Shown piece after piece: positions 1-23,955 of a DNA stretch of 25,645 bases. Positions within the stretch are counted from its first letter, which is position 1; the number at the start of each line of letters is the position of its first letter. The notes beneath the pieces were generated by a model that saw only the letters and a program-made list of their open reading frames with translations, did not search any database and was not told the DNA's origin. A program made the position numbers and the translations under genes. This DNA comes from a virus: positions 1-25,645 of the IMG/VR virus record IMGVR_UViG_3300023174_000593; one strand, 5' to 3'.

Positions 1-443
1 CTGATGGAGACGGAGTTGGAGAAGGCTCGATTGCGGGTGTCGGAATTGGAGATGGCGTTGGACTTGGCGCGTTCGAAGGCGATGGGGAAGGAATAGGAGA
101 TGGAATTATTACTGGTGGCTGAGATGTTGGGCTTGGGCTTGGTGTCGGCGTTGGGTTGGTTGTGGGCGATGGGGAAGGTTCAGGATTTACAGTTGGAGTT
201 GCGGATGGCGAAGCAGATGATTGAGGACTTGAAGAAGGAGAAGGTGTAGGCGATGGAGTGGGTGTGGGTGTCGGCTCTGCTGTTGGCGTCGGTGTTGGTG
301 TGGGGGTCGGTGAGGGTATTACAGGTGGCGTTGGCGTGGAAGTTGGTTGAGGACTTGGCGAAGGCTCAGGAGTTACAGAAGGACTTGGAGTTGGCTGAGG
401 TGTTGGAGAAGTGGAAGGTTCAGGGGTCGGAGTAGGTCCGGGC
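1..443 (-). repeat. Low-complexity Pro/Thr/Ser codon repeat
   Basis: Degenerate CCA/CCT-ACA/TCT codon repeats encode alternating Pro-Thr and Pro-Ser with interspersed Glu-Pro. Larger blocks recur: PPVIPSP and PPVIIPSP, and several EPSPSP/EPSTSP. Codons vary at third positions although the peptide stays regular, which suggests selection on the protein linker and not recent slippage. Such linkers usually form extended, often glycosylated spacers spanning cell walls. Confidence 0.85.
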
Positions 444-1261
444 TCTACGACTTCAGCGGTAACAACGGGCGCAATATAAACTCTTGTAAGTCCGGCTTCT
501 TCTAAAGTAACAACGCGACCATCAGGCAAACGAACGCCTGTTCTTGTATTTAATCCCGCTTGCACATCTGAAAGATAAGTAATAGTTAAAGTGTTATCAG
601 CATTAATAGCCGCAGTTACAACAATTGTTGAAAGCGGATTGGCACTAGCGTTCTGACCATAAGGGCGAACTGCTAAGTCAACTTGAAATCCCGCTTGACT
701 CGAAGTAATAATCAAATGCTCGTCCGGCGCTCTCCATCCAGCGGGATAGGCATTTGAGGGATTTGGGTTAGCAGGGTCAAGAACTACCCAGTCATAAGCA
801 TTTACTGAAATTGAAGGCGCTGTTGGATAATTAGCAAATGCGTTATCTTGACGACCAAAAGTAATAGTTGAGTTTGTTGTTGCATAAACTGCGTTGTAAT
901 CGGTGCCTTGAAAATTAATAGTTGTGGGAAGTGCTACTTGATACGAAACGTCATCTCCACCACAAGTATCTTGAACAATAACCGGGGTTGAAGTAACAGT
1001 TGTACCATCAGTCGCTGTTGCTGTTGCTGTTTCATTTAAAACGACAGGAGCAGTTCGAGCGGTTGCAATACTTTGCACCGTTGTTACGCAAGTAGCCGAC
1101 GCATCAATTGTTCCCACGCAAAGATTAAATGAGAACGCTAGTGATGCAACAAAAAGAAAAACCCCCCAGTGTTTTGCACCTTGGGGGGTCTTTAAGTTTA
1201 GATGTTTTGCTATTTTGCTTACCTCTTTCGAGTTAGGCTTGGGCTTCCGTCCATGACACAC
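1..1261 (-). CDS. Secreted or surface protein with Pro/Thr/Ser linker (5' part; runs off left edge)
   Basis: An uninterrupted minus-strand frame runs from about 1261 off the left edge. No ATG lies in its 5' part, so the start is uncertain: GTG at 1261 overlaps the preceding gene by 29 bases, while an SD-like GAGGT at 1221-1225 is followed 8 bases later by an ATA (1213). From GTG, residues 31-56 (HWGVFLFVASLAFSF...DASA) form a basic, hydrophobic, Ala-x-Ala stretch like a Sec signal peptide with cleavage near 1094. A domain of about 200 residues follows (motifs FQGTDYNAVYATTNSTITFG, DWVVLDP, AGFQVDLAVRP), then at least 147 residues of PTPTPSP-type linker. The effector domain must lie beyond the window. 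It follows the tail and lysis-type genes, so a secreted lysis enzyme, a virion adhesin or a host-derived wall protein are all possible. The frame is clear; the function is unknown. Confidence 0.75.
   Translation of the reverse strand, partial: MCHGRKPKPNSKEVSKIAKHLNLKTPQGAKHWGVFLFVASLAFSFNLCVGTIDASATCVTTVQSIATARTAPVVLNETATATATDGTTVTSTPVIVQDTCGGDDVSYQVALPTTINFQGTDYNAVYATTNSTITFGRQDNAFANYPTAPSISVNAYDWVVLDPANPNPSNAYPAGWRAPDEHLIITSSQAGFQVDLAVRPYGQNASANPLSTIVVTAAINADNTLTITYLSDVQAGLNTRTGVRLPDGRVVTLEEAGLTRVYIAPVVTAEVVEPGPTPTPEPSTSPTPQPTPSPSVTPEPSPSPQPTSTPTPPVIPSPTPTPTPTPTAEPTPTPTPSPTPSPSSSPQSSASPSATPTVNPEPSPSPTTNPTPTPSPSPTSQPPVIIPSPIPSPSPSNAPSPTPSPIPTPAIEPSPTPSPS
1151..1188 (-). terminator. Rho-independent terminator of the late operon
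   Basis: Read on the minus strand, CCCCCCAAGGTG, loop CAAAA, CACTGGGGGG folds into a GC-rich stem (1162-1188) followed immediately by TTTTTCTTTTTG (1151-1161). This is a classical intrinsic terminator 45 bases after the stop of the 930-residue structural gene. It also lies inside the open frame of the next gene, within its signal-peptide codons, so it may attenuate that gene. Confidence 0.85.
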
Positions 1262-4025
1262 GACCTGCTACATCGATAGCCGCCGCTGAAATGTTTGTTA
1301 CTAAAAAAGTCAATACATCGGGTCCATCAGGAAAAATCTGAGTGTTAGCCAAAGATGAACCGCCACCCATAATTGCGTTACCTAGGTCGCGCAAGTTTGT
1401 AAGGTCAAGTGTATCTGTACCACCTGAAAGGAAGCCGCCTGTTGTTTCTCCACCAGCGACAGTTGTAGCACCGCCACCATAGTCGGCGATTTGAGCAAGT
1501 GATGAGTTGGTTAATGTCGCTGAACCCGCCGTAGGGCTTGTCCAAGAAGTTGCTGAGGAAGGTGTGCCATTGATAACAGCGGTAATTAAATAGTTTGATG
1601 AAGCCGTCTTACAAGTCACGCCAAGAGCAACCATTTTTAACTGCATACGGTTAAGTAGTTCACGGACACCATAAAGACCACCAATACCGCTATCAACAGA
1701 GGGTGCTACACGAATACTTAAAAGAGCCTTTGTTGCACCAGCGGAGATGTTCGTAAAGACAGTCTGTCCGTAAGTAAAAATAAGTGACTTATCGTTATCA
1801 AAACGACCATCCATAATTACTGATGTTCCCCAGTGAGAAATTGTTGGAGCATAAGTTGGTTGAGAAAGTTCAACAAGAATCGGCGCACCAGTTAATGCAG
1901 TAAATGTGAAAGCGAATGGCGAACCTGCATCCATTGGTGGAATTGTTAAAGTTGGATTTGCTCCTGTTGCGGCTACGCTTAAAACAAAAGTTGTTGCGTT
2001 TGTAATAGATTGAACAAATCCGCCTTCAGGAATATAACCAGTTGTTAAATCATAAACTTTTTGACCGACTCGTAAGTTTGCTGTTGAAGCAACAGTCACT
2101 ATGTTTGAACCCGAAGCCACGGTTGAAGAAACTCCAGCAGGAATGCCTGCTCCTGAGCGAGAAAGACCAGTAAATGTAGTAGAAGTTTTTCCTGTATAAG
2201 TTACATATTCACATTTGGCGTTATCTCGAACTAATAAAACACCACTAGAGGGGAAAGTAGAAGTGCTTACAACAGTCATTGTTACATCTGTGCTACCTAG
2301 CGTTGCGGCTAGACGACTAAATGGCGGTTGCATTGAAGTTTCATAGCGAGCAGGAAGGTTTCCTGAACGCATATAGGCTTCAGCATTCACATTGTTATTA
2401 GCAATACGGTGACAATAAGTTACTTGACCATCGGTTGCGCGGAATCCATAACGGATTGCACCAGCGCCATACCAAGTGTAGTCAATGTAAAACATTTGCA
2501 TTTTAGATAAATCAATGTTGTAACCACTTGTGCCAGTTCCGTCCATCTTGTCTATATTCCAAGAGGATTGAGCAACTTTAGTATCTACTGTTCTTGTAAC
2601 TTGAACCATTGTTGCGGTTGAACCGCGATAGGAAGGTGAAATTGTAAATGTATTGTCGTCTGTAATACCTAGAACGCGGTAAGAAGAACCGCGAATTACA
2701 ACATAATCATTTGGCACTAATTGAGTCAATGAAGCGGTAGGGAAAGTAACAGAAGTTCTTGTTACTTGGTCTGAACCTTGTGTGACCGAGTAACGACCCG
2801 GCAATTGATAGGTAGAAGTTCTGCGAACTGCGTAAAGTGTTTGTCCATCAAATTCAAAAAACACGCCGTTTTGGTCATCAAATAACCCAAGACGATTAAT
2901 TGCTCCATACCAAGCAACAACGGAAACAATAAATGGTCCCTGTGCAGTTAATATAATAGGAGTATTTGGCAAAGTAACAGTAAATGTATTATAAGAAATA
3001 ACAGCAGAAACAGTAAAAGTTCCATTGTAAGTGCCATCGTTAGTTACTCCCGAAATAGTAACTTGAGCGCCTGTCCAAATGTTGTGGCGTTCTTTTGTCG
3101 TGACAGTTGCAGTAGTTCCCGAAGCAGTAATTGCATCTACTTGAAGACTGGGTTTTAAAATTGTTCCCGAAGAAATCTGAATACCTTTACCAGACTGGTA
3201 ACGGAAATAACGACGGGTTTGGCGAACGGCTGTTTCATAATTTGAATTGCCGTTTGATGAGAAGATAACTCCACCATCAAAAGGTCGATGTAAGAATTGT
3301 CCAGAAGGACGAACATACACATTCATGCTTGTTACGGTCAAAGCAGAAGGAACACCAGCGTTATAATCTACAACATAACTAAAAATGTTTGGAGTAGAGA
3401 TACTGCAAACTTCATAAGCGCCATTGGGTGGATTTGTTCCCGTAATACCAGTGACAATAATCTCGTTACCAATTGCAAGACCATGTGGAGTTGAGCAAGT
3501 TACGGTTACAATCTTGTTGCTGGTTGTAACAATGTAAGAACCTTGAGCCGCAATAGCCGCATTGCTGTAAAGAACTGCTTGATAAACAACTGTTTTATTA
3601 GCATCAAAAATTGCTGTAAATGATGTGTTATTTGTTGAACGAGCCTTATAAGTAAATACAGTTGTTCCGCCGCCTGTTTCAATAATGAAGTTACCATTGG
3701 CTGGAGTTAATAACGAATCTTGAACATAAATAGCAGTGCCGTTTGCAGGAGCAACGCCGGAACCTAAAGTAATAATTACTTGACGAGACCCTGCTACATA
3801 TTGCATTGAAACAATGTTGGGAATTGAGTTAGCGCTTGGATAAGCAAATGGCACATTGTTTACTGTTGCAAGGTTTTCCCACTTAGTTGTCTGTGTGCCA
3901 TATTCAAAGTCTGTATCAATAAGTGATTCTGGAGTTGCTACGCGCAATTTATTTGTAGGGTCGTATAAAACTTCAGTGGGGGTAAAGATTGTTGAAGTTC
4001 CTACGGTCGTCGTTGAAATTGGCAT
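1233..4025 (-). CDS. Large virion structural protein, VrlC-like, possible tail fibre
   Basis: 930 residues, beta-rich, no signal peptide. Repeating modules of the type 'HGLAIGNEIIVTGITG...NGAYEV' (about 181-206) and 'HNIWTGAQVTISGVTN...NGTFTV' (about 314-339) are typical of phage structural beta domains. A region near 488-562 (WNIDKMDGTGTSGYNIDL, YTWYGAGAIRYGFRATDG, AYMRSGNLPARYE) closely resembles a signature I know from VrlC-type structural proteins of T4-like marine cyanophages. The start at 4025 follows AAGGG within 12 bases and lies two bases after the upstream stop. It is the last gene before a strong terminator. Likely a virion appendage or fibre; its exact position in the tail is inferred. 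Confidence 0.7.
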   Translation of the reverse strand: MPISTTTVGTSTIFTPTEVLYDPTNKLRVATPESLIDTDFEYGTQTTKWENLATVNNVPFAYPSANSIPNIVSMQYVAGSRQVIITLGSGVAPANGTAIYVQDSLLTPANGNFIIETGGGTTVFTYKARSTNNTSFTAIFDANKTVVYQAVLYSNAAIAAQGSYIVTTSNKIVTVTCSTPHGLAIGNEIIVTGITGTNPPNGAYEVCSISTPNIFSYVVDYNAGVPSALTVTSMNVYVRPSGQFLHRPFDGGVIFSSNGNSNYETAVRQTRRYFRYQSGKGIQISSGTILKPSLQVDAITASGTTATVTTKERHNIWTGAQVTISGVTNDGTYNGTFTVSAVISYNTFTVTLPNTPIILTAQGPFIVSVVAWYGAINRLGLFDDQNGVFFEFDGQTLYAVRRTSTYQLPGRYSVTQGSDQVTRTSVTFPTASLTQLVPNDYVVIRGSSYRVLGITDDNTFTISPSYRGSTATMVQVTRTVDTKVAQSSWNIDKMDGTGTSGYNIDLSKMQMFYIDYTWYGAGAIRYGFRATDGQVTYCHRIANNNVNAEAYMRSGNLPARYETSMQPPFSRLAATLGSTDVTMTVVSTSTFPSSGVLLVRDNAKCEYVTYTGKTSTTFTGLSRSGAGIPAGVSSTVASGSNIVTVASTANLRVGQKVYDLTTGYIPEGGFVQSITNATTFVLSVAATGANPTLTIPPMDAGSPFAFTFTALTGAPILVELSQPTYAPTISHWGTSVIMDGRFDNDKSLIFTYGQTVFTNISAGATKALLSIRVAPSVDSGIGGLYGVRELLNRMQLKMVALGVTCKTASSNYLITAVINGTPSSATSWTSPTAGSATLTNSSLAQIADYGGGATTVAGGETTGGFLSGGTDTLDLTNLRDLGNAIMGGGSSLANTQIFPDGPDVLTFLVTNISAAAIDVAGRVSWTEAQA

Positions 4026-4027
4026 GG

Positions 4028-4336
4028 TTACTTACCCTTTGTGGTCTTTTTTACCGGAGCCTTCTTGGCAGTTTTTTTAATGGCTTTAGCGGTTTCTTTT
4101 TTTGCGCCCTCTAGGAGCGGCTTTGCAATTAAGCCAAATGCTGGGTCTTTCTTATTAATGTAACGAAGTGCAACTGGGATTAAAGTTGTCCAAAGAACAT
4201 TAGAAACATCGGCCCATTGGGAAGATGTAAATGAGGCTGGGTTTGCGCCTTGTCCAACGAGAACAACCGCGGCGGCAACCTGTCCTGCTAGGTTGCGAAC
4301 GTATGAGTCAAGCATTGACTGAAACTTAGGGTTCAT
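4028..4336 (-). CDS. Small membrane-associated protein, putative holin partner
   Basis: 102 residues. A hydrophobic helix at about 17-30 (AGQVAAAVVLVGQG) and a second at about 48-60 (VLWTTLIPVALRYI) are followed by a strongly basic C terminus rich in KKTAKK. The start overlaps the upstream stop as ATGA, so translation is coupled to the preceding membrane protein. Short proteins of this layout (N-terminal MNPK, central weak membrane segments, then 'INKKDPAFG') recur next to lysis genes in actinobacterial and aquatic phages and are often called putative holins. That label rests on size, topology and context only. Confidence 0.5.
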   Translation of the reverse strand: MNPKFQSMLDSYVRNLAGQVAAAVVLVGQGANPASFTSSQWADVSNVLWTTLIPVALRYINKKDPAFGLIAKPLLEGAKKETAKAIKKTAKKAPVKKTTKGK

Positions 4337-4632
4337 TTTATCTCCTTCATCGACTTAACTAAATCATAGAGGTCGTCTAGGCGAGTTACCACGCCCGACT
4401 GGCGTTCTTCCAATCTTATGATTCTATCAGCAAGGTGTGAGCCTCCATTGGTTTCTAATTGCGACACCAATTTGAGGATAGGCGCAAGGTGGCACTCAAG
4501 TTCAGATTTTACTTCTTCAATTAGGGATTTTTTCACCGGGCTCCAGACAAACTTTTGTAGGACTAAGGCTAGGGTCAGTATTGCTCCTCCGATAATGCCC
4601 ACCGCGCCCGCGGCTTGAAGGAATGAATTCAT
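4333..4632 (-). CDS. Single-span membrane protein with coiled-coil tail, holin-like
   Basis: 99 residues. One clear transmembrane helix near the N terminus (about 6-30, AAGAVGIIGGAILTLALVLQ) is followed by a charged helical tail with heptad-like spacing (SLIEEVKSELE, LADRIIRLEERQ, LDDLYDLVKSMKE). This one-span plus cytoplasmic coiled coil is the layout of many phage lysis accessory proteins or holins. No convincing SD precedes the ATG at 4632; a 47-base AT-rich gap separates it from the baseplate gene. It is coupled to the next gene by ATGA. Function is inferred from topology and position. Confidence 0.5.
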   Translation of the reverse strand: MNSFLQAAGAVGIIGGAILTLALVLQKFVWSPVKKSLIEEVKSELECHLAPILKLVSQLETNGGSHLADRIIRLEERQSGVVTRLDDLYDLVKSMKEIK

Positions 4633-4679
4633 GGTTATAAGGATAACAAGTGTTTAGCAATATGGGTTTAGGGAAACGC

Positions 4680-5126
4680 TTAAGTTAGTTTGCCTAAAAC
4701 AACCAAATCATTATCGTTGACAAGGCAAATTACAACATCATTAACTACGGGGGAATAAGAAGATAAATAACGAATTCCCGTAATGGCGGTCGCCGCACCT
4801 GATGGTTTGACTGAAACCCTAGTTGAGTAAAAAGTAAGAGCGGCGGCGGCATTAATAGACGCGCCCACATTTGTCATAATTAAATCTGCTCCGTTAATGG
4901 AATAAACGTAAGTACTGGCAGAAATGTTTGTTCCTGTTATTGCCATTCCGGGCAAAATAGCATTATTTGCCGCGCTTAGTGTCACGGCTTTAGTTGCGGT
5001 ACCAACGCTTCCGGTTGCTGTTGTAGTTGAAACCGCTTGGGTAGTTATAGCAGTAACAACCCCAAATCGAATAAATATGTCCTGATTATTTTTAACAATG
5101 GTATTTAGTAACTGACCAATTTCCAT
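4680..5126 (-). CDS. Small baseplate or tail-tip protein with OB-like C-terminal motif
   Basis: 148 residues, beta-rich and poor in charged residues. The C terminus 'SPVVNDVVICLVNDNDLVVLGKLT' style pattern (about 126-148) resembles the last strands of OB-fold tail-spike or baseplate hub proteins, where 'G-D-x-V-x-x-(n)-VLGxL' is common. The middle (about 38-95) looks like an inserted beta domain with an 'LPGMAITGTNISAST' motif of the kind seen in phage fibres. It starts in a TAATG overlap with the stop of the upstream tail protein, so it belongs to the same tail-tip module. Exact role unknown. Confidence 0.5.
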   Translation of the reverse strand: MEIGQLLNTIVKNNQDIFIRFGVVTAITTQAVSTTTATGSVGTATKAVTLSAANNAILPGMAITGTNISASTYVYSINGADLIMTNVGASINAAAALTFYSTRVSVKPSGAATAITGIRYLSSYSPVVNDVVICLVNDNDLVVLGKLT

Positions 5127-6274
5127 TAAACGGTTCCAATCGCAACAATTTCATTTGCGCCAACAATTCGAACTACCCGAGTAGTCACGTTTAGTGAGCC
5201 TTTGTAATCAAGCGGTATATCCAAAGAATCGATAATAACAGTTCTATCCACTTTTGAACCTTCTGACTGCACATAGATGACGTCATTGACGTCCAGAGAG
5301 GCGTCAACCATAGACTCAAAAGTAATTTGTTCTTGTTGACCAATATAAGTATTTAACAAAAGCGAAGCCGCTTTAATTGCATCGGCTGACGTACCAATAA
5401 CGTTTGTAGTAATAAAAGTTGGGACAGAACCAAAAACACCATAACGATAAGTCGGACTGGTTGTATCTTCATCCCATACCTCAACGCGAATTGGTGTGGT
5501 TACTTGAGAACCCTCAACGGTATAGATAACCCCGTTGTAAGTTTCTTTTGTTGATATTTTTCTATCAATAGAAGTAATTGTTGTTCCATTTCCTTCTTCA
5601 TAAGTTGCCACAACAGAGGCCGCATCAAGTGTTGGAAATTGCCTCATGGTGCATACGCCCTTGACGTCAAAATAAAGGTCATATCCAACCAATTGAGCCA
5701 GCATGACGGCATCTTTCCAAGGGTCTAAGTTTGAGTCGGCGCCTAATACAATTTGGTTGATAGTCACTTGAGTAGTAGGAAAATTTATTTCAATATCTGC
5801 ATAGCGATTTTGAAGCAAAGCCGTCAAAGAGGTTTCTAGCGTTCCCGAAACCATTTGATAACTGGAAGTCCATTTGTTACGGGAAACGATAATAGATTTA
5901 TCTTCTCCTCGTATTGATATAGATACACCATCGTTTGTATCTTTGACTTCAACCTCAGTAATAACAAATACACCTAAAGGAATATATTCCTGTGTTCCGT
6001 CTGCATATTGGACACCTCGATAAAGACGAAGTTGATTACCAAAAGGTGCTAAGTAATCAAAGCCGTTGTCAGGAACTAAATTTGCGGTTGTTCGGTCTGT
6101 TGTCAAATGAACTTCACAAGTACGTCGAACTGAACTGGATGTACTGACGCTTACTTTTCCTGAATCAATGTCAAGGTCTAGTAACTTTCTGTCCGCACTC
6201 CAAATTTCGGCTTTGCCAATTACTGTATGGTCAGAAACAATTGCTAATTTGTAAGCCGCGCTTGTTGCATACAT
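5126..6274 (-). CDS. Minor tail protein, DUF5047-like (tail tip/hub)
   Basis: 382 residues. The N-terminal stretch describes an added-segment pattern 'KAEIWSADRKLLDLDIDSG' followed by 'SVRRTCEVHL', 'LAPFGNQLRLYRGV' and 'IPLGVFVITEVEV', the characteristic run of DUF5047-type proteins of actinobacteriophages, which sit in the tail tip downstream of the distal tail protein. The middle and C-terminal parts (about 125-370) contain 'SLTALLQNRY' and 'SLDVNDVIYVQSEG', consistent with the hub/Tal-like domains that follow. It overlaps both neighbours by TAATG (6274 and 5126). No peptidase or lysozyme motif was seen. Confidence 0.7.
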   Translation of the reverse strand: MYATSAAYKLAIVSDHTVIGKAEIWSADRKLLDLDIDSGKVSVSTSSSVRRTCEVHLTTDRTTANLVPDNGFDYLAPFGNQLRLYRGVQYADGTQEYIPLGVFVITEVEVKDTNDGVSISIRGEDKSIIVSRNKWTSSYQMVSGTLETSLTALLQNRYADIEINFPTTQVTINQIVLGADSNLDPWKDAVMLAQLVGYDLYFDVKGVCTMRQFPTLDAASVVATYEEGNGTTITSIDRKISTKETYNGVIYTVEGSQVTTPIRVEVWDEDTTSPTYRYGVFGSVPTFITTNVIGTSADAIKAASLLLNTYIGQQEQITFESMVDASLDVNDVIYVQSEGSKVDRTVIIDSLDIPLDYKGSLNVTTRVVRIVGANEIVAIGTV

Positions 6275-7797
6275 TATTCAGCGATTTCTACATAGGTCAA
6301 AGTAATATCACGGTAAACATTGTCGCTTTGGCTTTCTGCTGTCCATTTACGGTCAGTAATACGAATCCATTTTTGATTACCATAAGGGTCTTGAACTAAT
6401 AACTTGCCTTGATGAACAATAAGTGGATAAACTGCATCCCATTCAGTTTCAGTTACTGTTTTGATGTTGTATGCACCATCTTCGCCCTGTAAAGGACCTG
6501 CGACAATAATAGGCTTGGTTGCGCCCAACGGTCTGAAAACAGTATTTGGTTCATCTACTTGAACATCTAATTCTTTAAGGACTCGTATTGAGCCTTTATT
6601 TAGGGTTGGGTCTTCAATACATTTGAACCACCATGTATTGTCATTAGTAATAAGAACTTGCTGAGTTACAGACCATCCGGAAGGATATTCAATTGAGTTT
6701 GAATCTACTGCAACGGCGCGACAACGATAGTAAGCAGTGATGCCGCGGGGTGCTTCATAATCAGCAATAACGCTTTGATTTGAGGCATTTAGAGTAATTC
6801 TTTCTCCATCGCGAATGTAATCCCAAGTGACGCCTGAATCATCCGAACGCTGAATCTGATGGTATTGACTTGTAAAAGCCGCACCCAAAGAAGTTCCTTG
6901 GTTTGTAAAAGAGGCTTTTGCAAGAGTTGCAGACCAAGCAACTACCATTGTTGGAACTGCTTGCGTTGAGTAACTAACGTTGAATTCTGAATATGTCCAA
7001 TCAGACCAGAAAGCACTTCCATTAATATCTTTAGCAACACGAACAAAACAACGATAAGTAGCAGGGACTAATAAGGTGCCAACAACGGAGTTTAAATCTG
7101 TTTGCGCAATTGCGCCGGAGGTCCAAGTGGGCGTTGAGGTGCTTACACTCCATCCCGCGGCATTGTATTGAGCAGAACTAAATACTTTAATTTCTACATA
7201 TTCTTGAGTTGAACCATCAGTTGCATCTACATAAGTCCAAGTAATGTCTGGTGTGGTTGTAGAAACAGTGCTTACTGGTGCGGATACTGTTCCAACAGAA
7301 GGTTGCGCGGCAATATCCACATCAACATAAAGTTCATAAATTTTTCCTCGGTCCGTTGTGTCTTTATATTCTTCAACTTTAACACGAATGTTGTTTACGT
7401 TTGTTTGAGTCCAATCCGAACCATCAGGTGCGGCTGTGTAATAAGGGCCAGTAAAAGTAGTAGCAGAAGTATATGCACCTCTAATAGCCAAACCTGTATA
7501 AAAATAATTTTTTCGTGTAATTAAAGCGCCAAGATACACATTGATTTTGCCTGAATCGTTTGGAGTTGAACAACGAGCGCGAACACGAACTTGTTTTACT
7601 CGTTGAGCAGAAGTGAGGGTTAAAGTTCCAAAGTCCATAATAAGGTCCGCCCCACCTAATACGGTGTTGGCTTTTTGAACATAAGTGCCGTCTGAACCAT
7701 CATTTAAAGCCGCTTGAATAGTCGCAGAACCGCCCGTGATTGTATAAAGGGTTGTTCCTGATGCAACTGCGTTAGCAAGTACCGTTGTTACTGCCAT
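6274..7797 (-). CDS. Minor tail protein with two fibronectin-III-like domains, distal-tail type C terminus
   Basis: 507 residues, lying directly after the tape measure where distal tail proteins are found. The N-terminal third (about 1-165) is a jelly-roll-like beta domain. Two Ig/fibronectin-III-like segments follow (about 166-275, with PDITWTYVD and ATYRCFVRVAKD; about 276-385, with YHQIQRSDDSGVTWDYI and AYYRCRAVAVDS). The C-terminal about 115 residues (WWFKCIEDPTLN, VFRPLGATKPIIV, WIRITDRKW, RDITLTYVEIAE) resemble the C-terminal region of SPP1-type distal tail proteins, which hold the receptor-binding apparatus on the tail tip. ATG at 7797 lies 4 bases from the tape measure stop. Role is inferred from position and domain style. 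Confidence 0.65.
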   Translation of the reverse strand: MAVTTVLANAVASGTTLYTITGGSATIQAALNDGSDGTYVQKANTVLGGADLIMDFGTLTLTSAQRVKQVRVRARCSTPNDSGKINVYLGALITRKNYFYTGLAIRGAYTSATTFTGPYYTAAPDGSDWTQTNVNNIRVKVEEYKDTTDRGKIYELYVDVDIAAQPSVGTVSAPVSTVSTTTPDITWTYVDATDGSTQEYVEIKVFSSAQYNAAGWSVSTSTPTWTSGAIAQTDLNSVVGTLLVPATYRCFVRVAKDINGSAFWSDWTYSEFNVSYSTQAVPTMVVAWSATLAKASFTNQGTSLGAAFTSQYHQIQRSDDSGVTWDYIRDGERITLNASNQSVIADYEAPRGITAYYRCRAVAVDSNSIEYPSGWSVTQQVLITNDNTWWFKCIEDPTLNKGSIRVLKELDVQVDEPNTVFRPLGATKPIIVAGPLQGEDGAYNIKTVTETEWDAVYPLIVHQGKLLVQDPYGNQKWIRITDRKWTAESQSDNVYRDITLTYVEIAE

Positions 7798-16575: not shown

Positions 16576-16934
16576 TAAACACCAAAATGAATGACCGTGT
16601 GATGATTTCCACCAGTATCTTTTTTGGTTTCAAGCCCCACAATTACTGGCGTAGTTGAATTAGGCAAAGTTATTTTGTCGGCAAGAGTTAAAGAGGCATA
16701 AGGACCATACAAAATTACTCGACCTGTTGAAACTATATCTTGGCCCTCGGCATCTTTCATAAGACGTGTTTCATAAATCACGCGCCCGCGGGCGGATGTG
16801 ACAGTTCCACCATAAGTACGCTTACCGTATTTATCAATTGCTGACCCGGCGTTAAATGTAATCGTATCCGGCATCATTTCATAAAATTTAGAATCAATAC
16901 CTTCCGGACCCTGCCATGTTGTAGGTAGTGCCAT
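16575..16934 (-). CDS. Head-tail stopper/joining protein
   Basis: 119 residues, mainly beta (DTITFNAGSAIDKYGKRTYG, GRVIYETRLMKDAEG, VSTGRVILYGPYASLTLADK, KKDTGGNHHTVIHFGV). Length, a strand-rich body and position between the connector and gp10-like genes match the gp16/gpFII-type stopper or joining proteins, which close the portal channel after packaging. TAATG-type overlap with the connector gene (16934). Assignment rests on context and style, not a decisive motif. Confidence 0.7.
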   Translation of the reverse strand: MALPTTWQGPEGIDSKFYEMMPDTITFNAGSAIDKYGKRTYGGTVTSARGRVIYETRLMKDAEGQDIVSTGRVILYGPYASLTLADKITLPNSTTPVIVGLETKKDTGGNHHTVIHFGV

Positions 16935-17371
16935 TATTGTGAATTTGTTTCTTGAGTATCAGAACGAGGGTTATCCATTTGACCAAGGTGCGCATCCGTA
17001 TTGTAAGTAGTTACATTCCGGTCCGCTGTGGATTTGAGCGAATCTGCATTTGCAATCCATGAAGGCGCGTAACGGCGCATACGATTTAAACGAAGGCTTG
17101 AGGCTAAAGCAGAAAAACGCTGTGATTGAGTTGAGAAAGTTTCGTTTAAGGATAGGTCGCCAACAGACTTTGAATAATCAGCCTTGTGAGCATATTGTCC
17201 GGCAAGGACGTCAGCGGCGTTTGCGGCGGCATCATAAACATCAGCCCATTCAGAGATAAGCCAGTTAATTTCCTCATCGGTCATGTGGGGAGCCGTTGAG
17301 TCAGTATCTTGGATAAGAAAACGGACCTTATCGCGGTCTGAGGTCGCTGGTCCTACATAGGTAAAAGTCAT
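16934..17371 (-). CDS. Head-tail connector (adaptor) protein
   Basis: 145 residues, helical. Opens with 'TFTYVGPATSDRDKVRFLIQ' then 'DTDSTAPHMTDEEINWLISE' and alanine-rich helices, the usual pattern of phage gp6/gp15-like connector proteins ('D-x-V-R-x-L-I-x-D-T', 'D-E-E-I-x-x-L'). These form the ring beneath the portal. It is separated from the capsid gene by about 6.8 kb of fibre and accessory genes, where normally it follows closely. A TAACAT hexamer ends 6 bases before the ATG, and AAGGGT lies too close to act as a normal SD, so a leaderless start is possible. Confidence 0.8.
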   Translation of the reverse strand: MTFTYVGPATSDRDKVRFLIQDTDSTAPHMTDEEINWLISEWADVYDAAANAADVLAGQYAHKADYSKSVGDLSLNETFSTQSQRFSALASSLRLNRMRRYAPSWIANADSLKSTADRNVTTYNTDAHLGQMDNPRSDTQETNSQ

Positions 17372-17439: not shown

Positions 17440-17997
17440 ATGATTATTCAAGATGACCAGTTTTTAACACAAGATGAGGCTAAATTCTACGAAGAAACTC
17501 TTTTAAATAATAGCCCATGGAAGTTTAATCCTTGGACTAATACAAAAAGTGCCAATGGAGAAGCCTTGTCTTCACAAAACGAATCATTTCAATTTGTGAG
17601 CAATATCGATATGGACCATCCACTTCATTTACTTACTCTCGAATTGCTTTATAAATTCACAAACAAACATAACATAAATGTTAAAACCGTACGAAGAATA
17701 AAAAGCAATATATTGACTCAAAGTAGTAATACTGGATATCACTCTCCGCATATTGACCAAAATTATGAACATAAAGTTTTTCTTTATTATGTAAATGACT
17801 CTGATGGAGATACAATTTTTTTTAATCAATTTTGGTCTGAAAATAATCCAGCAACAGAAGACACTTTGACTGAACAGATTCGAGTTTCCCCTAAACGGGG
17901 GTTAGGTATTGTGTTTGATGGTTTTCAATATCATGCTTCAACATCTCCACAAATAAACGGTTATCGTTGCGTTGTAAATGTGGATTTTATAATTTAA
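17440..17997 (+). CDS. 2-oxoglutarate/Fe(II)-dependent dioxygenase (prolyl-4-hydroxylase-like fold)
   Basis: 185 residues. The double-stranded beta-helix signature is complete: H104-I-D106 (GYHSPHIDQN) and H165 (FDGFQYHASTSP) as iron ligands, R176 (GYRCVVNVDF) for the 2-oxoglutarate carboxylate, and 'FLYYVNDSDGDTIFF' between them as in P4H-type enzymes. It would couple 2-oxoglutarate decarboxylation to hydroxylation; the substrate (protein side chain, sugar or nucleotide) is unknown. It is the only plus-strand gene in the window, AT-rich like the three genes it meets, and its stop overlaps the neighbour's stop in TTAA. Such enzymes are frequent in aquatic phages near fibre genes. Likely a moron-type acquisition. 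Confidence 0.85.
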   Translation: MIIQDDQFLTQDEAKFYEETLLNNSPWKFNPWTNTKSANGEALSSQNESFQFVSNIDMDHPLHLLTLELLYKFTNKHNINVKTVRRIKSNILTQSSNTGYHSPHIDQNYEHKVFLYYVNDSDGDTIFFNQFWSENNPATEDTLTEQIRVSPKRGLGIVFDGFQYHASTSPQINGYRCVVNVDFII

Positions 17998-18707
17998 TTA
18001 ATTATGTTTTTTGTAATTTCTTTTGATATTAACTTAGACATACCGTTGGCATGAAATTTCTTATACAAAAAAGATAATCCTTTATTAGGTTCAAATCTTT
18101 TATAGTTTATACACCCTTGAGATAATTGAATAAGTTCATTACTTAAATTAAATCTTTTTAAAACGACAGGCTCATTAGTATGAAACTTTACATAAGCCAT
18201 TGGGTCATTCCGTTTAATTTCAACATAGTTACTTTTTTCATTTAATTGAATTGCGGCTTCAAGAGGTCTAAACCAAGAATTGATATTAAATGAACCCGGT
18301 ACATAATAACCATCAAAAACTGGTTTGTGTAAATAGGCTGGTGTTGAAGTAATTTCTAATGATTCTTCAGACCAAAATATCCAGTTATTTAAAATACTAA
18401 ATGTATAAGCATCCGTTACGCTTGGTTGTTTATTTGCCACTACACTAATATCCGATTTACCATAATCTGAACTAACAATTCCAAAGTCTTTATCTATGTG
18501 AAATGAAATAGGACTTGGAAACTTTAATACAAATGTATTCTTTACATTATGTAAAAAAGCATGACATTGAAACCAATTTTCTTTTTTATTTTCTTTATTT
18601 TGTTGATATTTAATATCTTGCAATAAAGATACTGGCTCATCGTATAAAAGGTGCATTGAGGCATAGGTATCGCTTGGATACCAAGGGGACCAATAAACAG
18701 TAACCAT
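17994..18707 (-). CDS. Cassette protein 3, divergent member of the DUF6065-like trio
   Basis: 237 residues, AT-rich. Not recognised by motif, but the middle can be laid against its two neighbours: 'WIFWSEESLEITSTPAYLHK' sits where they have 'WGIKTPKGYSCLF' and 'SPFFIRTPKNYSVFI', and 'PLEAAIQLNEKSNYVEIKRN' followed by 'DPMAYVKFHTNEP' sits where they have the 'DTD...FPF...G-I-x-x-G-T-P-x-x-Q' run. N-terminal region begins VTVYWSPWYPSD. I infer a distant paralogue with a beta-helical (cupin-like) core. It starts in a TAATG overlap with the second trio gene and ends convergently with the oxygenase. Function unknown. Confidence 0.6.
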   Translation of the reverse strand: MVTVYWSPWYPSDTYASMHLLYDEPVSLLQDIKYQQNKENKKENWFQCHAFLHNVKNTFVLKFPSPISFHIDKDFGIVSSDYGKSDISVVANKQPSVTDAYTFSILNNWIFWSEESLEITSTPAYLHKPVFDGYYVPGSFNINSWFRPLEAAIQLNEKSNYVEIKRNDPMAYVKFHTNEPVVLKRFNLSNELIQLSQGCINYKRFEPNKGLSFLYKKFHANGMSKLISKEITKNIIN

Positions 18708-19405
18708 TATTGATATGTTTTAACCTTCCATTGATTTTTTTTATACCAACCACTGATTACAGAATGAGCGCGTCTTTGATTTAATCCGCCAATTTTAATA
18801 ATGTTTTTATTTTCGACACTTTCCCAATCATCTCTTTTAAAAGGAATTATTTGAAATAAAGGAGTTCCCTTTTTAATAATACCCGTGAAGCCTTCTTTAA
18901 TAAAAAAAGGCACATTTCCAGTAGTCATAACATCATCACTATCGACAACAGCAGATAATGTTTTAAAAGGTAAATCATCTCTGTTTATAGGGTGTGTAAT
19001 AAACACGCTATAATTTTTAGGCGTTCTTATAAAGAATGGAGAACGCCATGTGAATCTTCTCGGGTGAAAACCAATAGGAACAGGAAGATTATCATTGAGG
19101 TCAATTGGTCTTTCTGCTATTGGGTCATACTCGCTTTGGCGATGGCGAAATACTTGCATATCGTTTTCAAAATCCACAAAAACATCGACCCATAAAGTAG
19201 CAATGTAGCCACTTAGCATTCCATCTAAAAATGGAGCACAATGTTTAAAACTTTTAATCGGTTCATTCCCACTCCATTTTAAATCACTATCTTTAGGCTT
19301 CGGGCTATTTTTATACCACTCAGGAATAAACAACTTTGCTGGTTTTGGTAAATCAATTATTTCACCTTCACAAGCAAATTCTATTATTTGTTTTTTAGAT
19401 TTCAT
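18707..19405 (-). CDS. Cassette protein 2, DUF6065-like
   Basis: 232 residues. Conserved landmarks: 'LPKPAKLFIPEWYK' (19-32), 'SFKHCAPFLDGMLSGYI' (52-68) with 'DVFVDF', 'FFIRTPKNYSVFITHP' (124-139), 'AVVDSD' (152-157), 'VPFFIK', 'GIIKKGTPLFQIIPFKRDDW' (175-194) and a C-terminal 'WYKKNQWKVK'. This is the pattern of a family, which I know as DUF6065, encoded in many aquatic phages and some bacteria; no activity is established. The order of strands suggests a double-stranded beta-helix, but the iron-binding HxD motif of oxygenases is not evident. ATGA and TAATG overlaps tie it to both neighbours. Confidence 0.7.
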   Translation of the reverse strand: MKSKKQIIEFACEGEIIDLPKPAKLFIPEWYKNSPKPKDSDLKWSGNEPIKSFKHCAPFLDGMLSGYIATLWVDVFVDFENDMQVFRHRQSEYDPIAERPIDLNDNLPVPIGFHPRRFTWRSPFFIRTPKNYSVFITHPINRDDLPFKTLSAVVDSDDVMTTGNVPFFIKEGFTGIIKKGTPLFQIIPFKRDDWESVENKNIIKIGGLNQRRAHSVISGWYKKNQWKVKTYQ

Positions 19406-20118
19406 TTATCAAAGTCCGTAATTGACCAATTCTTTTTTGTCCAGTATAGATTTTTATATCTATTAAAAAATCTAACACTTAATTCCGTATTAACATTTTT
19501 TGCTTCTTCTAAATCATTTGATTGACCTCTAACAAACTTCCATTCATCGCGTTTAAATGGAATTACTTGAATCATTGGTGTGCCAGCAGGTATCAATCCT
19601 TGAAATGAAGGATTTTTAAGAACAAACGGAAAATTAACTCCTGCCGTATATGTATCTGTATCTACAATACCCGGCAAACATTCAAACCATATATTGGAAT
19701 TGTGCATTGGTGGTAAAAATAAACAAGAGTAACCCTTGGGAGTTTTGATTCCCCAACCATTAATCCATTTTGGAAATGAAAAACTATTTTGATTAGGGTG
19801 TTTATGTCCTTGCTTTAAAGGATGATGTTCAATGATTTTAGGAACGCTTGTTTCATAATAAGGTTCACCTAATTTATCACTTACAAAAACATCAGCAGGT
19901 GTATTAAGAATATAACCAGCAGTCATTGAATCAAAAACTGGCATACATTTTTTAATTGTAGGATAACTCTCGGGAGTTTGATTTTTACTTTCAGGATACC
20001 AATTGGTTGTTTCTTTATACCAAGTAGGTATTACTTTTGAGGCTGGCTGAGGTGCTGATAGTTCAGGATACTCATGCAAATTTGTAAAAGTAATTATAGT
20101 TTTTGATTTAAAAAACAT
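19402..20118 (-). CDS. Cassette protein 1, DUF6065-like
   Basis: 238 residues, parallel to the next gene: 'APQPASKVIPTWYK' (22-35), 'TIKKCMPVFDSMTAGYI' (54-70) with 'DVFVS', 'GWGIKTPKGYSCLFLPPMH' (121-139), 'PGIVDTD' (149-155), 'FPFVLKN', 'IPAGTPMIQVIPFKRDEW' (176-193) and 'YWTKKNWSI' near the end. Clearly homologous, though diverged, so an old duplication. The SD (AAAGGGGG) and start codon are buried in a hairpin stem. It follows the fibre-type genes, so a role in modifying or matching fibres or cell-surface glycans is possible, as inference only. Confidence 0.7.
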   Translation of the reverse strand: MFFKSKTIITFTNLHEYPELSAPQPASKVIPTWYKETTNWYPESKNQTPESYPTIKKCMPVFDSMTAGYILNTPADVFVSDKLGEPYYETSVPKIIEHHPLKQGHKHPNQNSFSFPKWINGWGIKTPKGYSCLFLPPMHNSNIWFECLPGIVDTDTYTAGVNFPFVLKNPSFQGLIPAGTPMIQVIPFKRDEWKFVRGQSNDLEEAKNVNTELSVRFFNRYKNLYWTKKNWSITDFDK

Positions 20119-20173: not shown

Positions 20174-20617
20174 CTATGCTTTTTCTTCTAGGAGTGCTCG
20201 CAGTCTTTTAATTTCTGCATCTTTTTCATCTTCTGATAAAGGCGCCTCGATAGATTGCATAGGAATAACTTCCTCGGCATCAATGTATGGTTTTTCCCAT
20301 TCAGTGCCATTCCATGTCCATCTGTGGTCTATTTCTTCTGTAACTATTGCTTTACCTTCTGCTTCATGTGAAAAATAAGTATGCTTAAATTCTATTGGCT
20401 TTCCTTTAGAATCAACTTCTGCATAAAAAATAACTTCAGCCTCTGACCATGTTTTTGTTTTTTCGTCATATTTTTTATTTAAAAATTCTTCTGGGTTATC
20501 TGTTTCAACAGAAATAGCCGTTGTGTGGTCAGGGGTTATAGAATGGTCAGGGTCTTCTCCTGCTGTTTTAATAACAGCAAAACCAATACCATCGCGCAAT
20601 TGAATAAAAGTTTTCAT
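20174..20617 (-). CDS. Protein with coiled-coil tail, possible fibre-associated or chaperone protein
   Basis: 147 residues, acidic. The N-terminal 30 residues (MKTFIQLRDGIGFAVIKTAG) and middle (DNPEEFLNKKYDEKTKTWSE, HRWTWNGTEWEKPYI) resemble the short accessory proteins encoded after tail fibres, including fibre assembly-type proteins with 'yd-x-x-t-x-x-W' repeats. The C terminus (SEDEKDAEIKRLRALLEEK) is a heptad coiled coil suited to trimerisation. Starts in a TAATG overlap with the preceding fibre-like gene. Function not recognised. Confidence 0.5.
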   Translation of the reverse strand: MKTFIQLRDGIGFAVIKTAGEDPDHSITPDHTTAISVETDNPEEFLNKKYDEKTKTWSEAEVIFYAEVDSKGKPIEFKHTYFSHEAEGKAIVTEEIDHRWTWNGTEWEKPYIDAEEVIPMQSIEAPLSEDEKDAEIKRLRALLEEKA

Positions 20618-21069
20618 TAGTTATACTCCACAACTTCCCAGCGACAAGCACCTGATACAACGAGTGATGTTGAGTTTGAAAGATATCCTTGAATTACACC
20701 TGCAACTAGATTATTAGAACCAGCACCAACTGATGCGTTGCCAGAGTTTACTGTTGCTGATTTGTTCCATGCCCAAGCGTTCACGCGAGTCCAACCAGAC
20801 TGACCTGCATCAACGCTGGCGCTAGAAGGCGCCCAGTATTCACCAAAGTTTGTTGCGTGACCAGCAACGCCAGGAACTGTCATAGCGCCCGCGTTCATGC
20901 TCATATTAAATGAAGCAGAAACCGTTCCTGTACCAACCGTTCCTTGGATATTAACAAATGATTTATTAATATCAACTGCTGTAATAGTTACTGTTCCTGC
21001 GCCAGCCGCGCTTCCACGCTGAATGGATTTAATAGGAGAGGCTACTGCTGGGTAAGTTGCTAGGGCCAT
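20617..21069 (-). CDS. Fibre-like virion protein
   Basis: 150 residues, Gly/Ala/Ser/Thr-rich and almost devoid of charges (KSIQRGSAAGAGTVTITAVD, ASFNMSMNAGAMTVPGVAGH, LSNSTSLVVSGACRWEVVEY). The opening 'IKSIQRGSAAGAGTVTITAVD-INKSFVNIQG' type stretch is common in short phage fibre or virion-surface proteins, in which a strand-rich domain ends in an 'R/W-x-V-V-E-Y/F' strand. TAATG overlaps on both sides place it in the fibre cluster. No enzyme motif. Confidence 0.55.
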   Translation of the reverse strand: MALATYPAVASPIKSIQRGSAAGAGTVTITAVDINKSFVNIQGTVGTGTVSASFNMSMNAGAMTVPGVAGHATNFGEYWAPSSASVDAGQSGWTRVNAWAWNKSATVNSGNASVGAGSNNLVAGVIQGYLSNSTSLVVSGACRWEVVEYN

Positions 21070-21919: not shown

Positions 21920-22249
21920 CTAAACGATTTCCACGCCAAAGGCGTTAAATGAAAGACTACCAGATGTTGAGTAAACTCTAAGAACATCTGCCGCATCCAT
22001 AGTAATACCAAGGGCTAATTCTGTTGTTGAGTTTCCAGCAATAATAATTTCACGAGCCACATATTGTGCCAAAGTATCAGCCGCACCATCTTTGGCAACT
22101 GAGACTCTAAAAGTTGAAGAGGAAGATGCTGTATTACAAACTACCACGGAATTGATGATAGCAAAGGTGGCAGATGGGCAGGTATAGATATCTGTCAGGG
22201 TCGCGGCGGCAGGGGCAGATTGGCCTAAAACTTTATACGTTAATGCCAT
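21920..22249 (-). CDS. Small beta-sandwich virion protein, paralogue of the 101-residue protein
   Basis: 109 residues. 'LTDIYTCPSATFAIINSVVV-CNTA' and 'TFRVSVAKDGAAD' then 'REIIIAGNSTTELALGITMD' follow the same strand order as the 21069-21374 product. The opening 'ALTYKVLGQSAP' is typical of virion proteins of aquatic phages. It overlaps the C terminus of the 356-residue fibre gene by 17 bases, with a TAGGAG SD 10 bases before its ATG. Confidence 0.6.
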   Translation of the reverse strand: MALTYKVLGQSAPAAATLTDIYTCPSATFAIINSVVVCNTASSSSTFRVSVAKDGAADTLAQYVAREIIIAGNSTTELALGITMDAADVLRVYSTSGSLSFNAFGVEIV

Positions 22250-23303
22250 ACCTGTAACTCCTACCTAGTAACTGATGAGGTCTATTAGCCGTAGAACGAA
22301 GTCTATCAGCCCAGTCGCGCAAAGTATTAGAAAAAGTGGTCGAGCCGAGTACGGCGTATGTCGGGAATGTGCTTGCGGTTACGGCATAGGTAAAGAAGGA
22401 ACGAGTCAGTGCGCCGTAGTCATTACCAGCAACAGTTCTAGTAAGACTCAACAATCTATCTGTAAGAGTTAAGTCATAAACATCTGCCGTATCTAAAGCA
22501 TTACCCATCTGTCCAATAAGGGTTCCAATTTGAGCATAAGTCCAATTCATGCTTGCACCAGTAAGGGCGTTGTAATTTAGATACTCGTTAGCAACATTGG
22601 CGTAGGTTCCCCATTTAGCCGTTACTGCATAATTTCCACTCACGCTTAACGCGCCACCATTAGTTGTCTCTCTAAGGTCAGTTGAGGTTGCTGTGTAGTT
22701 ATTAAGGCGAGTCATGCGGTCATAAATTAATTGAATACGAGCATTACTCAAACTTAAACTTGCGGGCGCGGCATTCGCATAAGTTCCCCAAGTGCTTGCC
22801 AAGGTGGCATAGGTATCGAAGTAAAGATAAAGCCATTCATAGGTTGCGGGGATAGGTAAAGTTGTAACAGGAAGCGTAACTCCGGTGTAGTAGGTTTCTT
22901 GAGTAACAGTTCTTGCTTGAAGGGGAGGCCATAGTTGATATGCGACGGGTTGAATATAATTCACAATTGTTGCATCAGCCCGAAGGTCGGTAATATCTAC
23001 GGTGGCACCTAAAGAAGAAGGAAGCGAAATAATATAAGTAGTTCCACCTTCAAAAGATTCTTCAAAAAGATAAGTAAAGTTCGCTGGAGTTACATCGGCA
23101 TCGTTTGTGACTGGGACTGAGACACTAAAAGAGCCGCCGACTAAATCTGTTGTAATAACAGTGGGAATAATAATTCTATCTGCGGCTGAATCTATAAGAA
23201 CTTGAGAAGGATAAATCTTTACTTGTCCATCAATAGCGGCACCTTGAAAGTCTAAATACTGACCAGTTAAAGTGATGAGGGTTATATTGCCGGGAAGTGC
23301 CAT
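22233..23303 (-). CDS. Fibre/appendage protein with actinophage-type N-terminal domain
   Basis: 356 residues. Residues 1-110 (MALPGNITLITLTGQYLDFQ, GQVKIYPSQVLIDSA, GGSFSVSVPVTNDADVTPAN, FTYLFEESFEGGTTYIISLP) form a beta-sandwich module widespread at the N terminus of minor tail proteins of actinobacteriophages. It is paralogous to the gene at 23383-23955. Residues 150-356 are Tyr/Ala/Thr-rich with recurring 'W-G-T-Y-A-N' (WGTYANAAPASLS and WGTYANVANEYLN) and no match I know; probably the receptor-side part. The ATG shares TAATG with the 26-residue ORF upstream. Confidence 0.65.
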   Translation of the reverse strand: MALPGNITLITLTGQYLDFQGAAIDGQVKIYPSQVLIDSAADRIIIPTVITTDLVGGSFSVSVPVTNDADVTPANFTYLFEESFEGGTTYIISLPSSLGATVDITDLRADATIVNYIQPVAYQLWPPLQARTVTQETYYTGVTLPVTTLPIPATYEWLYLYFDTYATLASTWGTYANAAPASLSLSNARIQLIYDRMTRLNNYTATSTDLRETTNGGALSVSGNYAVTAKWGTYANVANEYLNYNALTGASMNWTYAQIGTLIGQMGNALDTADVYDLTLTDRLLSLTRTVAGNDYGALTRSFFTYAVTASTFPTYAVLGSTTFSNTLRDWADRLRSTANRPHQLLGRSYRYGINV

Positions 23304-23383
23304 TACCTATCTCCCAACCAACAGGCAATAATTGTAATTGCAACAAGGCTGATAACCATTTGAATAGGAGTCATTCCGAACAT
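23303..23383 (-). CDS. 26-residue single-span membrane peptide
   Basis: A short ORF, MFGMTPIQMVISLVAITIIA followed by CWLGDR, exactly fills the space between two paralogous fibre genes. Its ATG shares TAATG with the upstream stop, and its stop shares TAATG with the downstream ATG, so all three are translationally coupled. Residues 7-22 make one hydrophobic helix with a short charged end. The exact fit, with no base left over, argues that it is translated. It resembles small holin-like, Rz-like or membrane regulatory peptides, but function is unknown. Confidence 0.6.
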   Translation of the reverse strand: MFGMTPIQMVISLVAITIIACWLGDR

Positions 23384-23955
23384 TAGTACGCCCTTGAAGG
23401 GTATAAAACTCCATTATCGGCTATGCCACCGATTGCTCGGACATAAGAACTGACTAGCGTTCTTGAAGTGTTTGAATTAGTAATTGCCGAACTCAGTGCA
23501 GATTGCAAAGAGGCTAAGAATGTTGTGACGCCACTTGCTTGCCCTTCCACGGTTGTGAGGCGAGCCGAATAAGCATTAAACTCGGCGGCGGCAATATAGA
23601 GTGCGCCAGTTCCATCGTTTGCCACAGCAGGCGACACATCGGCTAAATCTACTGTTGCAGTAGCGGCTGGTAAAAGGATATCAAATGAGCGACCACCAAC
23701 AAATGCTTCCTCTACATAGTAAGAGAAATTTACTGGAGAAGCATCGGCATCGTCTGTTGCTACAAGTTGCTGACTAAACGAACCATTAGCATCAAGTGTT
23801 ACAACGATTGTACTGTTAACTAAGATTACATTTGAGGTTGTATTACGAAGAACAGCGCGAGGGGTGAACTTAACCTGTCCGGCAATAGCAACGCCGGAAA
23901 TATCAATGTAAGTTCCTGTAACAGTAACAAGACTTAAATTGCCCGGAATTGCCAT
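23383..23955 (-). CDS. Fibre/appendage protein, short paralogue
   Basis: 190 residues. Residues 1-108 (MAIPGNLSLVTVTGTYIDIS, GQVKFTPRAVLRNTTSN, NGSFSQQLVATDDADASPVN, FSYYVEEAFVGGRSFDILLP) match the first 110 residues of the 356-residue protein throughout. The C-terminal part (AAEFNAYSARLTTVEGQASG, TFLASLQSALSSAITNSNTS) is helical, consistent with a coiled-coil stalk, and ends SYVRAIGGIADNG. An AGGGGTGG SD precedes the ATG. Probably a shorter fibre or stalk subunit that shares its attachment site with the longer one. Confidence 0.65.
   Translation of the reverse strand: MAIPGNLSLVTVTGTYIDISGVAIAGQVKFTPRAVLRNTTSNVILVNSTIVVTLDANGSFSQQLVATDDADASPVNFSYYVEEAFVGGRSFDILLPAATATVDLADVSPAVANDGTGALYIAAAEFNAYSARLTTVEGQASGVTTFLASLQSALSSAITNSNTSRTLVSSYVRAIGGIADNGVLYPSRAY

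Follow-up and report, generated by a model that had tools for sequence, protein, structure and literature searches.

Among described proteins, the closest in fold to those considered here are the trimeric dUTPases (PF00692), such as the enzymes of Aquifex aeolicus (8y1q) and Mycobacterium tuberculosis (1six). In sequence, the nearest entries are phrog_7084 and DUF6065 (PF19541), a family without recorded function, and phrog_17480. Our search of the literature found, in the library covered, no paper naming DUF6065 and none mentioning a "dUTPase fold" together with phage tails. In the hafunaviruses HF2 and HSTV-2 a homologue lies near a Gly-rich adhesin that was reported to determine host range (PMC8651126). 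The 2OG-Fe(II) oxygenases of phages (phrog_274, PF13640) are common in aquatic phages (PMC3037559, PMC9146016). The present analysis gives a widespread phage family that has had no assigned function a predicted fold, a likely pocket and a fixed genomic place, directly behind the genes that decide host binding.

The window, i.e. the whole stretch of viral DNA analysed here, is a 25.6 kb fragment (25,645 nucleotides). On its minus strand the tail fibre genes (phrog_14726; 22233-23303 and 23383-23955, spanning 22233..23955) form the upstream end of the fibre module. They are followed by several small proteins, the last two being of 150 aa (20617..21069) and 147 aa (20174..20617, cluster n91), and then by A (19402..20118, 238 aa), B (18707..19405, 232 aa) and C (17994..18707, 237 aa). 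The overlap is 4 bases (ATGA) between A and B and 1 base (TAATG) between B and C. OX, a putative oxygenase of 185 aa, is encoded on the plus strand (17440..17997) and converges with C, their 3' ends overlapping by 4 bases. On the opposite side, the cassette has a conserved boundary in a minus-strand phrog_1732 gene (16934..17371, cluster n11/c18). This layout of four open reading frames, with an overlapping trio, a convergent oxygenase gene and a high AT content, had been given in the preliminary description and is confirmed from the sequence; chance open reading frames are ruled out by the conserved homologues. The GC fraction of A, B, C and OX is 0.29-0.33, versus 0.436 in the remaining window. 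Of 275 A/C-family genes in the fetched loci, 96% have a lower GC content than the locus they belong to (mean -5.8 points), whatever the phage; the AT-richness of the cassette is therefore typical of the family and no sign of recent arrival here.

A and B are clear paralogues, as had been proposed: they align over 204 aa at 32% identity, with a pairwise E of 5e-27, and both match the phrog_7084 profile (E 4.8e-54 for A and 9e-35 for B). B, itself a row of the alignment concerned (A2), keeps all the residues that are invariant in it. The third protein had been described as only loosely alignable. Pairwise comparison of B with C indeed gave no match, and C matches phrog_17480 over nearly its full length. 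Comparison by hhalign of the A-type profile (77 sequences) with the C-type profile (63 sequences) gave E 6e-5, with a probability of only 65%, over 131 collinear columns. Within these columns lies a cysteine that is invariant in both profiles (C58 in A, C48 in C), and the iterated A profile also recruits C-type proteins. Because of this profile comparison and of the fold described below, C is a distant homologue of A and B, and the three belong to one superfamily. The label "DUF6065-like" is justified in part: 22 of the 77 A relatives match DUF6065 at E<0.01, but B reaches 15.4 bits where the Pfam cut-off is 26.6, and A and C have no match.

Models of A and C were built by AlphaFold with family alignments (pLDDT 93.1 and 93.5, respectively). 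The 50 PDB matches listed for the A model are dUTPases apart from a single dCTP deaminase, the best match having E 8e-5 and probability 1.00. The 50 listed for the C model are likewise dUTPases and one dCTP deaminase, the likeness being weaker than for A (best E 1.9e-3). Against a library of viral structures, the A model retrieved uncharacterised tailed-phage proteins first and then dUTPases. Because both models match dUTPases in nearly all listed PDB rows, the modelled fold of the trio is the dUTPase beta-clip, a fold that is newly attributed here to the phrog_17480 type. For A, the TM-score to the target is 0.56-0.75 for the matches with E<=0.001. The preliminary description had suggested that the trio might share the fold of the oxygenase. 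This idea is ruled out by the fold searches, in which A and C match dUTPases instead.

The correspondence with dUTPase motifs 3 and 4 had been put forward from sequence ahead of the fold search. In a single hhalign comparison of the A family with five bacterial dUTPases (E 0.0027, 11% probability), GIVDTD of the A family is placed on GVIDAG of motif 3, and AGTPMIQ (GTPxxQ) on AGDRIAQ of motif 4. Among the 77 sequences of the A/B family, W33, C58, D63, Y69, S131, P137 and D153 are invariant, and Q184 (99%), D76 (97%) and R190 (96%) nearly so. The catalytic Asp of motif 3 (D153, 100%) and the Gln of motif 4 (Q184) are thus kept in A/B, and D76 is probably the retained Asp of motif 1. Several features nonetheless set A and B apart from the trimeric dUTPases: about 100 extra residues, the location of their genes in a fibre module, and a motif 2 (P-R-S-[GS]) in which P137 is kept and Arg-Ser is absent, the consensus being P-x-H-R. 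Motif 5, with its Arg and Gly-rich C-terminal arm, was not seen in A/B, where C-terminal helices are found instead. The PF00692 profile matched nothing in the window, whether at its curated cut-off or at E 1, and nothing across 36 records of relatives, and the sequence-profile searches found no dUTPase. Searching solved structures by sequence with A, C and OX gave no meaningful relative. Because motif 2 lacks its Arg-Ser and motif 5 is missing, A and B are probably not dUTPases; together with the absent profile match, this rules out a plain dUTPase. C lacks both the Asp of motif 3 and the Gln of motif 4 and has its own invariant set (C48, I142, W145, R147, Y172, Y215 and F218).

The genomic address of the family was studied in stretches of viral contigs, of which the best 80 of 117 encoding A relatives and the best 80 of 115 encoding C relatives were retained. 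In 49 of 83 deduplicated records, a Gly-rich open reading frame occupies exactly the second position upstream of the A homologue, versus 0-13% at the other positions from -6 to +6. In such relatives, this -2 slot holds a glycine-rich gene that is fibre- or adhesin-like; the -2 gene of the window itself, encoding the 150 aa protein, is not Gly-rich. The gene directly before A (n=130 A genes) encodes a small protein of cluster n4 in 30 cases and of cluster n34 in 10, and another A in 29. The profile of the small protein found at -1 in the window also matches one member of cluster n4. In 68 of 93 records, fibre or tail clusters are no more than 4 genes away. The fibre neighbourhood of the A/C family is real. 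The conservation of the neighbourhood in other phages, on which the preliminary description depended, is borne out by the -2 Gly-rich gene, and the full cassette is present in two other contigs. Annotated isolates carrying A relatives comprise 49 haloarchaeal virus records, and in HF2 and HSTV-2 the homologue stands at the end of the tail module. The fibre and small protein of these haloviruses have no detectable homology with the -1 small protein and the Gly-rich fibre discussed here, only the arrangement being similar. In L052 and related loci (cluster n31), the fibre region that holds A homologues also encodes collagen-like fibre proteins with Gly-X-Y repeats. A collagen-like fibre was considered as a target of OX and rejected for the window, from which Gly-X-Y runs are absent (they are present in 25 of 162 loci).

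OX matches phrog_274 (E 6e-30) and, like the phage 2OG-Fe(II) oxygenases, contains the HxD...H motif and the 2OG-binding Arg: H104, D106, H165 and R176 are invariant in 8 homologues, in agreement with what had been read from the sequence. By these residues OX belongs to the 2OG-Fe(II) oxygenase superfamily; it has no Pfam match to PF13640. The description of phrog_274 as "DNA endonuclease V" clashes with this full motif and is probably a mis-annotation. Single-sequence scans of viral contigs with C and OX retrieved nothing or one match, whereas alignment queries succeeded. In two contigs (L086 and L088), homologues of A, B, C and OX all stand before the same structural gene, one member differing in strand in each; the closest-pair identities to the window are 57% for A, 50% for B, 58% for C and 50-52% for OX. 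Other close relatives have four family members and no OX. A 2OG gene (phrog_274 or PF13640) is present in 24 of 80 family records, and it lies within 3 kb of an A/C gene in 15 of the 80, i.e. in 15 of the 24 oxygenase-bearing records where 8.3 were expected (P 5e-4, an optimistic value because related contigs were not fully removed from the counts). In about 80% of the family records no oxygenase is found within this distance. In the reverse direction, a search from the OX profile alone gave 79 loci, of which 8 have an A/C gene no more than 5 kb away; in several of these (L203, L222 and L243) the A/C gene adjoins or overlaps the oxygenase gene. The claim that the four genes travel together therefore holds for this phage lineage and was overstated beyond it. 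The oxygenase is a recurrent but not an obligatory neighbour: members of the A/C family neighbour 2OG oxygenase genes in several groups of unrelated phages, and they neighbour fibre genes very often.

Other genes of tailoring type also occur near the family. A carbamoyltransferase gene is close to an A/C gene in 8 of 13 cases (2.9 expected, P 3e-4, optimistic for the same reason as above). A link with halogenases was rejected: these were found in single clusters (L106, L107, L124 and L151) with no overall enrichment (4 of 11, 4.3 expected). The densest tailoring-like cluster around the A/C family was observed in L106 and L107 (locus coordinates about 1-7000), where A, a tryptophan halogenase (PF04820), a second A, a 301 aa protein, a carbamoyltransferase, a third A and C succeed each other in one direction. 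In L094, L096, L098 and L099, a sulfotransferase-like gene (PF13469 in L099) is inserted at the same site beside A/C genes.

Twelve loci come from bacterial genome contigs. Some of these (L166, L167, L169 and L177) resemble phage or prophage. In Gammaproteobacteria MAG contigs (L170-L175), one or two A homologues are located among ordinary chromosomal-looking genes, with no fibre or phage genes in view. The function of the family is therefore not tied to fibres, which argues against a pure fibre-cap role. Next to some of these A homologues lie genes that, judged by eye, are recQ-like and queH-like.

The reading that we favour, tentatively and with somewhat less than even confidence, is that A, B and C constitute a fibre-associated maturation or tailoring module. 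It is the best fit because of the conserved pocket and the enzyme neighbours. The genes of the three beta-clip paralogues lie distally in the tail-fibre module, at its end. By analogy with dUTPases, we infer that the proteins probably assemble into trimers, either homo- or hetero-trimers, whose ligand pockets would lie between the subunits. In A and B the invariant acid/Gln pocket appears to be retained; since the parts that bind the triphosphate in dUTPases are lost, a different ligand is probably bound or acted on. C has a different invariant set, which includes W145, R147 and Y172. The role would most likely be to mature or tailor the fibre tip or adhesin, or a small molecule decorating the tip. 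The dUTPase-fold proteins would bind the substrate or a cofactor and OX, where present, would hydroxylate; in other lineages, different 2OG oxygenases or a carbamoyltransferase would take its place. Computation supports the fold, the relationship of the trio, the conserved residues, the fibre address and the recurrence of oxygenase and carbamoyltransferase genes nearby; trimers, substrate, a direct link with OX and the modification itself are inferred. A more specific version is unlikely as it stands: exapted dUTPase-fold hetero-trimers would bind the distal end of the fibre and present its tip to a partner enzyme (2OG oxygenase or carbamoyltransferase), constituting a dedicated system for modification of receptor-binding tips in bacterial and archaeal viruses. 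If the fibre is modified, viruses of both domains would share a general step that has been overlooked, the enzymatic finishing of these tips.

In decreasing order of probability, we place tailoring or maturation, a virion part or chaperone, nucleotide chemistry, and a parked host-directed gene. A structural or assembly role in the virion, in which A, B and C would cap, decorate or chaperone a trimeric fibre tip as a beta-clip trimer and OX and the other tailoring genes would just be neighbours in a variable fibre locus, is rather doubtful. The exact position behind a fibre or adhesin gene and a small protein would suit such a role, as would the place of the hafunavirus homologue, which ends the tail module close to the host-range Gly-rich adhesin (PMC8651126), and a trimeric fold may fit a trimeric fibre. 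However, Trp, Cys, Asp, Ser, Gln and Arg residues that are invariant across very distant phages look like a pocket and not like a variable cap, and bacterial homologues exist without fibres. In the parts of the HF2 report that we consulted, the four major virion bands that were analysed, VP1-VP4, are not reported as the homologue, minor proteins remaining candidates (PMC7230728).

Nucleotide enzymes, i.e. divergent relatives of dUTPase or dCTP deaminase acting on a modified deoxynucleotide whose base OX would oxidise, make a quite improbable explanation. The fold and the retained Asp and Gln of motifs 3 and 4 speak for it, and so do the neighbours of some homologues, namely thymidylate synthase in HSTV-2, and in HF2 and phage CRP-6 ribonucleotide reductase, whose gene is directly preceded by the C homologue in CRP-6; the absence of a PF00692 dUTPase from the 36 relatives' records points the same way. 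Yet the Arg-Ser of motif 2 is replaced, motif 5 is not seen, C lacks the retained dUTPase residues, and the family is found most often in the fibre module and not among nucleotide genes. Moreover, HF1-group viruses have a separate dCTP deaminase (PMC7230728). The least probable reading is that the three genes act in host takeover or at the host surface, have no direct part in the fibre, and are simply parked behind the fibre genes at a hypervariable site. The content and order of the cassette do vary between relatives, glycosyltransferase, sulfotransferase and halogenase genes are also found at the cassette spot, and family members occur in bacterial contigs, but the fixed order of the -2 gene, the -1 gene and A is too regular for random parking. 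In L113-L120 and L139, the C homologues were observed directly 3' of a gene for a 595 aa protein that resembles a large terminase subunit, its Walker A motif being read by eye.
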